A stretch of 51,494 bases of DNA from Candidatus Omnitrophota bacterium (GTDB taxonomy: Bacteria > Omnitrophota > Gorgyraeia > Gygaellales > Profunditerraquicolaceae), in contig JAHKAP010000054.1 in assembly GCA_018825985.1 (NCBI GenBank), positions 1-51,494 on the forward strand. Reading direction: 5' to 3'. The position numbers were made by a program, and so were the translations under genes. Every line of letters begins with the position of its first letter. The first letter of the stretch is position 1. Positions 43,325 through 45,718 of the stretch are shown piece after piece. The notes under the pieces are model-generated. The model did no database searches, was not told the DNA's origin, and worked only from the letters and a program-made list of their open reading frames with translations.

Positions 43325-43397
43325 GCGCCCGTCGCCTAATGGATAGGGCACCAGTCTTCGGAACTGGCAATTGGTGGTTCGATCCCACTCGGGCGCG
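43325..43397 (+). tRNA. tRNA-Arg (anticodon UCG)
   Basis: The acceptor stem GCGCCCG pairs with CGGGCGC, the anticodon stem CCAGT/ACTGG encloses CTTCGGA with anticodon TCG, and the T arm GGTGG/CCACT encloses TTCGATC (one G-U pair). CCA is not encoded. It starts 9 bases after the radical SAM stop. Confidence 0.95.
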
Positions 43398-43465: not shown

Positions 43466-43494
43466 TTTACAGCCCATCTAAAAGCAGGTATAAT
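43466..43494 (+). promoter_or_regulatory. Promoter of the tRNA-Lys, GIY-YIG-archease, rtcB unit
   Basis: TTTACA (43466-43471), a 17-base spacer and TATAAT (43489-43494) lie 18 bases before the tRNA-Lys gene. No other promoter or terminator is evident between the tRNA and the coding genes that follow. Confidence 0.7.
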
Positions 43495-43512
43495 TATTTC
43501 TAAATTACAAAA

Positions 43513-43585
43513 GGGCCATTAGCTCAATCGGTAGAGCAGGACACTCTTAATGTCAAGGTCGGTGGTTCGACTCCACCATGGCCCA
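43513..43585 (+). tRNA. tRNA-Lys (anticodon CUU)
   Basis: The acceptor stem GGGCCAT pairs with ATGGCCC, the T stem GGTGG/CCACC encloses TTCGACT, and the anticodon loop CTCTTAA carries CTT. The outermost anticodon-stem pair (G with A) is mismatched. CCA is not encoded. The next coding gene starts only 14 bases after the 3' end. Confidence 0.93.
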
Positions 43586-43599
43586 TAAAATTCCGATAT

Positions 43600-44265
43600 A
43601 TGTGGTATGTTTATATTCTAAGATGCAGTGATAATTCGCTCTATACCGGCATATCAATCGATCCCGCAAAAAGACTAATAACTCATAATAAAGGAAAAGG
43701 CTATAAATATATAAGGTCTAAAAGGCCAGCGGAATTGATATATTGCGAGGCATCTGATTCAAAGGGTAAGGCTTTAAGGCGGGAGATTGAGATTAAGAAT
43801 TTATGTTCTGAAGATAAGCATAAATTAGTCAGATCTGTCCCGAAGAAGAATTATGAATTAATCGAGCATACTGCAGATATAGGAATCAGGGTAAAGGCGG
43901 CAAGTTTGAATGGGCTGTTTAAAAGTTCTGCATTGGCTATGTTCAATATCATTACCCGAAATAAAATTCCCGTTCCAAAAACAGCTACCCTAAAAAAAAT
44001 AAAGATCAAACAAAGTGCGAGTGATTTGGAAGAATTGTTTATAAATTGGCTCAATGAACTATTGTCTCTATCGTCAGCAAAGGGTTTAATATTCTCCAAT
44101 TTCAGGATTAATAAATTGGATAATAATAATTTAGAAGCTGAAGTATTTGGTGAAAGTATTGATAATTATAATGTGAATACCGAGATTAAGGCTGCGACAT
44201 ACCATCAGCTTAAATTAGAGCAAACTAAAAAAGGTTGGCTGACGGAGGTAATTTTCGATGTCTGA
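43600..44265 (+). CDS. GIY-YIG nuclease domain fused to archease
   Basis: The protein has 221 residues. Residues 1-78 form a GIY-YIG domain of the YhbQ/Slx1-like type: VYILRCSDNSLYTGISIDPAKR with Tyr5, Tyr15 and Arg25, and Glu62 in ALRREIEIK. Residues about 84-221 are archease (NYELIEHTADIGIRVKA, ASDLEELFINWLNELL, ending EVIFDV), the factor that activates RtcB for multiple turnovers. The linker is only a few residues. The start lies 14 bases after tRNA-Lys without a ribosome binding site, and the end overlaps rtcB by 8 bases. Archease for RtcB is well supported; what the nuclease domain cuts is unknown. Confidence 0.9.
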   Translation: MWYVYILRCSDNSLYTGISIDPAKRLITHNKGKGYKYIRSKRPAELIYCEASDSKGKALRREIEIKNLCSEDKHKLVRSVPKKNYELIEHTADIGIRVKAASLNGLFKSSALAMFNIITRNKIPVPKTATLKKIKIKQSASDLEELFINWLNELLSLSSAKGLIFSNFRINKLDNNNLEAEVFGESIDNYNVNTEIKAATYHQLKLEQTKKGWLTEVIFDV

Positions 44266-45718
44266 TCCCTGGGAAGGAAAATTAGAAAAAATCGATGATT
44301 TCCGTTGGCGTATCCCTAAAAGTTATAAGCCGGGGATGCGGGTGCCGGGGATGGTTTATGCCGATGAAAAGCTACTCAAGGATATTAAAAAAGATAAGGC
44401 CTTAGAGCAGATAGCTAATGTAGCCTTCTTGCCCGGAATTGTTAATGCCTCTTTGGCTATGCCGGATTGCCACTGGGGTTATGGTTTTCCTATTGGCGGG
44501 GTAGCGGCAACTGATATTGAAGAGGGCGGGGTTATTTCTCCCGGCGGAGTTGGTTTTGATATCAACTGCGGGGTGAGAATGCTCAAGACTGATCTTACTT
44601 ACGAAGATATTAACGACAAAATAGAAAAATTAGTCTATGGATTATTTTCAGATGTTCCGTCCGGCATAGGTTCAAAAGGTGATATCAGGGTTAGCGTTAA
44701 GGAAGAAAGGGAGATTTTACTTAAAGGTTCCAAGTGGGCAGTGGAAAAAGGCTATGGCATTGCCGATGACCTGGAATGCACTGAAGAATATGGCGCGATT
44801 GAAGGCGCTGACCCGCAAACAGTATCTGATCGGGCTTATGAAAGAGGCAAAGCTCAATCCGGTACCCTGGGTTCCGGTAACCATTTCTTGGAAATTCAGG
44901 TAATCGATCAACTTTATAACCAGGAGGCTTGCGATGTTTTAGGCCTGGATTTGGGCCAGATCTCGATTATGATCCATTCAGGTTCCAGGGGATTAGGTTA
45001 TCAGATCTGCGATGATTATACTAAAAGTATGGTCCATTGTTTAAATAAATATGGCATTAATGTACCAGACCGCCAGCTGGCTTGCGCTCCGGTAAATTCC
45101 CAGGAAGGAAGAGCTTATTTATCAGCTATGAAATGCGCGGCAAATTATGCCTGGGCTAACCGCCAGTGCTTGATGTTTCTCACCCGTAAGGTATTTGAAA
45201 AAGTCCTGGGTAGTTCCTGGCAGAAGATGGGAATGTTTTTGATTTATGATGTAGCTCATAATATTGCTAAGATTGAAAAACACCTTATCGGCGGCAAAGA
45301 AAAAACTTTATGTGTGCATCGTAAAGGCGCGACCCGGGCTTTTGCCCCTGGACATCCGGCGCTACCAGAGAGATACAAGAAGATCGGCCAGCCGGTGATA
45401 ATCCCGGGAGATATGGGCAGGAATTCTTATCTACTGGTAGGTACTCAGAAGGCGATGGAAGAAACCTTTGGCAGCACCTGCCATGGCGCAGGCAGGGTAA
45501 AATCCCGGACTGAAGCTACCCGGACTATAAACGTAGATTCTTTGTTGAAAGAATTGAATTCCAAGGGTATAATAGTCAAAGCATCCGGCCGCGGCACTAT
45601 TGCTGAGGAAGCGCCTCAGGCCTATAAAAATGTTAATGATGTTGTAGATGTGGTGCATAACGCTGGTATCTCCAAGCGGGTCTGCAGGATGCGGCCTCTT
45701 GGAGTTATCAAAGGTTAA
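44258..45718 (+). CDS. rtcB: RNA-splicing ligase RtcB
   Basis: RtcB joins RNA 3'-phosphate or 2',3'-cyclic phosphate ends to 5'-OH ends with GTP and Mn2+. The protein has 486 residues and shows DCHWGYGFPIGGVAATD, GGVGFDINCGVRML with the metal-binding Cys, SGNHFLEIQ, IHSGSRGLG and CHGAGRVKSR with the guanylylated His. The N-terminal VPGMVYADEKLL is typical of archease-dependent forms. It overlaps the fusion gene by 8 bases, so the two are translationally coupled. No RtcR-type activator is nearby. Confidence 0.97.
   Translation: MSDPWEGKLEKIDDFRWRIPKSYKPGMRVPGMVYADEKLLKDIKKDKALEQIANVAFLPGIVNASLAMPDCHWGYGFPIGGVAATDIEEGGVISPGGVGFDINCGVRMLKTDLTYEDINDKIEKLVYGLFSDVPSGIGSKGDIRVSVKEEREILLKGSKWAVEKGYGIADDLECTEEYGAIEGADPQTVSDRAYERGKAQSGTLGSGNHFLEIQVIDQLYNQEACDVLGLDLGQISIMIHSGSRGLGYQICDDYTKSMVHCLNKYGINVPDRQLACAPVNSQEGRAYLSAMKCAANYAWANRQCLMFLTRKVFEKVLGSSWQKMGMFLIYDVAHNIAKIEKHLIGGKEKTLCVHRKGATRAFAPGHPALPERYKKIGQPVIIPGDMGRNSYLLVGTQKAMEETFGSTCHGAGRVKSRTEATRTINVDSLLKELNSKGIIVKASGRGTIAEEAPQAYKNVNDVVDVVHNAGISKRVCRMRPLGVIKG

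Follow-up and report, generated by a model that had tools for sequence, protein, structure and literature searches.

A GIY-YIG nuclease domain joined to archease in an Omnitrophota genome, probably left behind by a tRNA-linked mobile element

The locus studied here lies on a stretch of 51,494 nucleotides (the window) from a contig of a Candidatus Omnitrophota bacterium. A single open reading frame joins a nuclease domain of the GIY-YIG type to archease, the activator of the RNA ligase RtcB, and it does so between a tRNA-Lys gene and rtcB itself. Does such a join reflect a task shared by the two domains, for instance the cutting and rejoining or end-processing of RNA put forward by the first-pass annotation, or did it come about in another way? 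In what follows, the genome of the window is called G000, and its relatives within the Omnitrophota are called G001-G425.

Anatomy of the fusion and of its neighbors

All features described here are on the forward strand. A tRNA-Arg(tcg) gene (43325..43397; ARAGORN, Rfam RF00005 59.6 bits) comes first. It is followed by a promoter-like site of the sigma-70 type (43466..43494; TTTACA-17-TATAAT, 11/12 by consensus matching only), a tRNA-Lys(ctt) gene whose synteny is kept in relatives (43513..43585; ARAGORN, Rfam 68.7 bits), the fusion ORF of 221 aa (43600..44265), and rtcB, encoding the 3'-phosphate RNA ligase (44258..45718; PF01139, 581.7 bits). The pair formed by tRNA-Arg(tcg) and tRNA-Lys recurs in the same order in many relatives. 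As the first-pass annotation had it, 14 bp separate the 3' end of tRNA-Lys from the ATG of the fusion, and the fusion ORF overlaps rtcB by 8 bp. The promoter that it placed in front of tRNA-Lys was recovered as well; shuffled sequence yields equally many promoter-like sites overall, and this one sits directly 5' of the tRNA gene. A sequence scan found no terminator-like site between tRNA-Lys and the fusion ORF. Co-transcription of tRNA-Lys, the fusion ORF and rtcB is likely, with the promoter-like site serving all of them.

The nuclease domain covers residues 1-80 (43600..43839) and is of the UPF0213/YhbQ type, as indicated by Pfam (PF01541), phmmer, Foldseek, an alignment and a structural model. 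The Pfam match spans residues 1-68 with 65.6 bits (cut-off 22.6), and the best phmmer and Foldseek matches, 1ZG2 and 1YWL, are both UPF0213 proteins. In an alignment with 21 GIY-YIG homologues, Y5, Y15, R25, H29 and E62 are invariant and all present in G000, where only two near-invariant positions are altered (T38I and V44A). The Tyr, Arg and Glu residues that had been picked out as the active site are thus conserved, and the non-conservation that the first-pass annotation had named as a ground for abandoning its reading is not what the alignment returned. The two domains were modelled apart. The model of archease exceeds a pLDDT of 90 over most of its length, and the GIY-YIG half by itself reaches 87; a model of the whole protein cannot be relied on over the GIY-YIG part, where block means of pLDDT are 37-55.

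The archease domain occupies residues 83-221 (43846..44265; PF01951, alignment, model), with a Pfam match over residues 85-221 of 127.1 bits (cut-off 25), which bears out the assignment of both domains to one chain; the other factual points of the first-pass annotation were likewise confirmed. H90, D93, E195 and D220 are invariant in the archease alignment and K197 is nearly so. Human archease uses D51, K156 and D178, together with the C-terminal carboxylate at I179, to hold the metal and the phosphate that activate RTCB (PMC10944509). When the human protein and the G000 domain are matched through their HTAD and EIKAATYH motifs, the metal and phosphate residues (D93, K197 and D220) and the free C-terminus (V221) are found to be kept. 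The nuclease is added at the N-terminus of archease, and the C-terminal end stays free. Because these residues and the terminal carboxylate are retained and only the N-terminus is extended, the archease part has most likely kept its ability to activate RtcB. The known GIY-YIG enzymes are DNA nucleases that leave 3'-OH ends, and RtcB does not join such ends. The nuclease part is probably still a DNA nuclease in its own right that rides along, with no need for it to act on RtcB substrates. Both domains of the fusion are presumably active.

The next point to settle is whether the join is genuine. No in-frame ATG, GTG or TTG lies between codon 46 and codon 103, so that archease cannot start alone at a usual start codon; in relatives it starts at an ATG, GTG or TTG a few residues 5' of the KNYE motif. 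A fusion in which archease lacks its own start codon looks genuine, and since a mere sequencing indel would leave that start visible, the joined frame has probably existed in G000 for some time. An assembly or sequencing artefact, in which an indel error merged two adjacent or overlapping genes, could be suspected from the facts that the fusion is known from one genome alone, that this assembly is in 84 contigs, and that in a relative, G076, the homologous genes overlap in different frames. The start codon that an indel would have spared is gone, however, and the junction contains no homopolymer, which makes such an error improbable. The first-pass annotation had regarded itself as undone if no other genome showed the fusion and a frameshift were found; the first is indeed the case among the Omnitrophota, of which about 425 further genomes lack it, but there is no sign of the second.

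An old operon and a newcomer

A search of about 426 Omnitrophota genomes (G000-G425) returned a full-length match to the fusion in G000 only, and the remaining genomes match archease and GIY-YIG separately. Long matches that suggested further fusions (G383, G195, G302, G132, G254 and G293) turned out to be chance extensions, with GIY-YIG absent upstream. One pattern-based contig scan for the fusion outside the Omnitrophota returned a single locus, which belongs to an Omnitrophota genome with a stand-alone archease, and no paper joining archease with GIY-YIG was found in the literature collection searched.

The operon itself is widespread. In nearly every relative with enough flanking sequence (L115, L116, L117, L120 and most of L001-L042), tRNA-Lys lies directly 5' of archease and rtcB, with a median interval of 31 bp between the tRNA and archease (n=42 intervals). 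Most relatives have the anticodon ctt, three further families of the class have ttt instead, and the tRNA is always tRNA-Lys. The coupling to rtcB noted at first pass therefore holds well beyond this genome: the operon linkage is of long standing, and the newcomer is the nuclease. The retention of the operon across the Omnitrophota connects the RNA ligase machinery with a tRNA gene. The anticodon nuclease PrrC, which cuts tRNA-Lys, was considered as an explanation of the link between tRNA-Lys and RtcB and was rejected, with a PF13166 match over the cut-off in 0/40 genomes.

In G076, tRNA-Lys is followed by a separate GIY-YIG gene, whose product is 53% identical to the G000 domain, and then by archease, whose start lies within the last part of the nuclease gene, in another frame. 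This arrangement is plausible as a step preceding fusion. The left side of the G076 GIY-YIG gene keeps an AT hairpin and GAGCTCCGAG, resembling the left end of the elements described below. From the shared position and the identity of about 53%, one could also suppose that G000 and G076 received the GIY-YIG gene together with the operon from a common ancestor, that it serves the maintenance of the tRNA gene there, and that most relatives lost it. Yet homologues as close as that of G076 (51-57%) stand at other tRNAs in other families, and the rtcB tree places G076 within a group lacking the nuclease and G000 elsewhere, albeit with modest support; shared inheritance is accordingly given little credence. 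One old nuclease insertion followed by several losses may also be envisaged. As a separate observation, archease and rtcB of G031 have a distinct GIY-YIG gene between them (L048, 2019-2213).

The company kept by the nuclease in other genomes bears directly on the question of function. Homologues in relatives occur stand-alone, and among the 29 closest, picked solely for their resemblance to the GIY-YIG domain of G000, 13 have a tRNA on the same strand that ends at most 300 bp upstream. About 0.1 would be expected from a background of 0.37-0.41%, taken from two near-complete genomes; the corresponding binomial figure, 6e-24, is an overstatement, since some of the loci are related. The tRNA contexts are of roughly ten kinds (Thr, Pro, Lys ctt and ttt, Val, Leu, His, Arg and others), and later samples bring more tRNA-linked GIY-YIG genes. 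Rfam detected no other structured RNAs beside the tRNA-less GIY-YIG genes. At one locus (L213, G055), the sequence before the GIY-YIG gene looks like the 3' end of a structured RNA and includes a T-loop-like GTTCGAATC, but ARAGORN recognizes no tRNA in it; this end is perhaps that of RNase P RNA. Other in-frame partners exist as well: the GIY-YIG ORF is in frame with a cytidine/deoxycytidylate-type deaminase in G074 (L231) and with a secreted-looking EF-hand protein in G119 (L230) and G120 (L234). The deaminase and EF-hand genes possibly have their own start codons, and those fusions may thus not be obligatory.

These data can be set against the idea of a selected bifunctional enzyme, in which archease would tether the nuclease to RtcB for cutting and sealing, or for the capping of DNA ends, perhaps on tRNA-Lys or its gene. 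The key residues are retained in both domains, the fusion is obligatory in that it has no internal start, and it shares an operon with rtcB and tRNA-Lys. However, the fusion is found in one genome only, its nuclease family is linked to tRNA genes and mobile with or without archease nearby, members of the same family are fused to unrelated genes, and the 3'-OH DNA ends left by GIY-YIG enzymes are not substrates for joining by RtcB. A selected enzyme is for these reasons an unlikely account, and the cut-and-rejoin or RNA end-processing role suggested at first pass is not upheld, the nuclease being a late, mobile neighbor of tRNA genes. The pairing of GIY-YIG with archease would not be under selection, and the join looks accidental.

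Small elements at tRNA genes and the origin of the fusion

Several of the GIY-YIG genes belong to short units with a common layout. After the 3' end of the tRNA come an AT-rich hairpin, GAGTCCCGAGC...GCGAGGGAC, the GIY-YIG ORF, CTCGGGACTC...CTCG and, last, another copy of that 3' end. Among the 166 tRNAs from all loci examined, 11 have a downstream duplicate of their 3' end that is 12 nt or longer and no farther than 700 bp away, a proportion that is not a genome-wide rate since the loci are enriched for GIY-YIG genes; in 8 of them the duplication is at least 17 nt long. The same test applied as a control to the tRNA head, the tRNA middle and the upstream side gave 2, 1 and 0, respectively. 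All six duplications of at least 18 nt begin exactly after GGTT, at C56 of the T-loop.

A strict hairpin pattern, GTCCCGAGC-N-GCGAGGGA, was found in 35/384 genomes, with up to 40 copies in one of them (G412), and the reversed control pattern in 0. Both sides of the inner stem vary and pairing is kept. The hairpin is present also where there is no GIY-YIG gene, and many copies adjoin tRNA genes or immediately precede start codons. In a number of loci (L135, L164-L170 in G412, L171-L174 in G297 and L176-L184 in G212), hairpins of the form GTCCCGAGC...GCGAGGGA often lie directly 5' of genes, apparently by the ribosome-binding site (AAATTTTGCTTCGCAAAATTTGGAGG..ATG).

Movement of these units can be followed at a site between tRNA-Thr(cgt) and an MFS gene within one family, where the flanking protein is 85-88% identical within the genus. 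In G254 and G298 nothing is inserted there (7 and 18 bp). GIY-YIG elements with the tRNA duplication occupy the site in G297 and G307, an ORF-less hairpin version with the duplication does so in G357, and G210 has another insert with a 21-nt duplication. As empty, nuclease-bearing and ORF-less states are found at one orthologous site, the elements move. A second site, beside tRNA-Lys and a transketolase gene, has a GIY-YIG unit in G376 and only a solo left end in G343, which is of the same genus. At least two tandem copies of the tRNA-Thr 3' end were also seen 5' of the MFS gene in G289 (L255), which suggests repeated insertion at the same site.

The interval between tRNA-Lys and archease has been visited as well: it contains ORF-less hairpins in G017, G096 and G272, and duplications of the tRNA-Lys 3' end that measure 17 nt in G003 and 21 nt in G195. 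Judging by these sequences, it is a recurrent insertion site.

How the elements move can be addressed only tentatively. A general scheme, which we put forward as a working proposal a little short of an even chance, is that minimal Omnitrophota elements insert at the T-loop of many different tRNA genes, between positions 55 and 56, so that the tRNA is made whole again and a second copy of its 3' end stays behind; the enzyme moving them would be the GIY-YIG protein, the ORF-less hairpin versions would move in trans, and host fusions such as GIY-YIG-archease would be by-products open to domestication. Duplication breakpoints at T55/C56 are suggestive, but only that, of DNA cleavage in the T-loop by the GIY-YIG protein. 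Integrases too use the T-loop, so that a host or phage recombinase that was not seen could move the element, with the nuclease as a passenger.

Where the fusion of the window is concerned, the element origin can be held with more assurance: a tRNA-linked GIY-YIG element probably inserted beside tRNA-Lys and lost its ends, and its nuclease was left fused to archease. The ancestral operon would have consisted of tRNA-Lys, archease and rtcB, and a small tRNA-linked mobile element with a UPF0213-type GIY-YIG gene would have entered between the first two. The hairpin ends of the element and the stop codon of the nuclease would then have been lost, the latter loss letting the ORF continue directly into archease, whose own start codon would have decayed. 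No intact hairpin copy was found in the genome of G000 or of G076, and no tRNA-Lys duplication at the G000 fusion site; since G000 lacks both element ends and duplication, we infer the arrival of its nuclease in such an element from its relatives. A further point against this account is that the nuclease domain of the fusion has all its catalytic residues, some of which a domain that is only carried along could have shed.

The fusion is probably a one-off, and it cautions against inferring function from fusions of small GIY-YIG nucleases. Small GIY-YIG genes, which are common in bacterial genomes, behave here as though they belonged to a mobile element that targets tRNA genes, and the precise breakpoint in the T-loop, together with empty versus filled sites within one genus, points to a testable role for a widespread protein family.

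Comparison with known systems

The G000 nuclease domain resembles the UPF0213/YhbQ proteins (COG2827; 1ZG2 BH0048 and 1YWL EF2693) in sequence, fold, size and catalytic residues. These are stand-alone proteins of about 80-100 aa, whereas the G000 domain is fused to archease. Recent work reportedly identifies UPF0213/YhbQ proteins as site-specific ssDNA nucleases (Ssn), whose recognition repeats are dispersed in Neisseria. The Omnitrophota relatives likewise go with dispersed hairpin repeats, but these repeats and the linkage to tRNA genes set them apart.

A second parallel is offered by the T-even phage enzyme SegB, a GIY-YIG homing endonuclease. It is larger than the bacterial domain of about 80 aa. 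Genes of this kind adjoin tRNA genes and the cleavage motif, RAWTSGAAC, lies within the latter (PMC13096335). That motif is the reverse complement of the T-loop GTTCSAWTY, inside which the duplications described here begin. The placement is also similar, with a GIY-YIG gene beside a tRNA gene, at 14 bp from tRNA-Lys in G000 and at most 300 bp from a tRNA in 13/29 homologues; SegB is nevertheless a phage protein, and those considered here are bacterial.

The hairpins recall the REP/RAYT system (PMC3733652, PMC2817692), in which short palindromes are dispersed, some flanking a nuclease gene and many copies being gene-less. REP-like dispersed palindromes occur in 35/384 relatives and not in G000. 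The gene between the repeats is here a GIY-YIG gene and not an HUH tyrosine transposase, and the duplications are bounded by tRNAs. Finally, as in archaeal and bacterial archease/RtcB operons, archease lies 5' of rtcB, overlaps it and keeps its key residues. The operon described here differs from these in having tRNA-Lys as its first gene, a trait kept in the Omnitrophota, and, in G000, in the nuclease carried at the N-terminus of archease.
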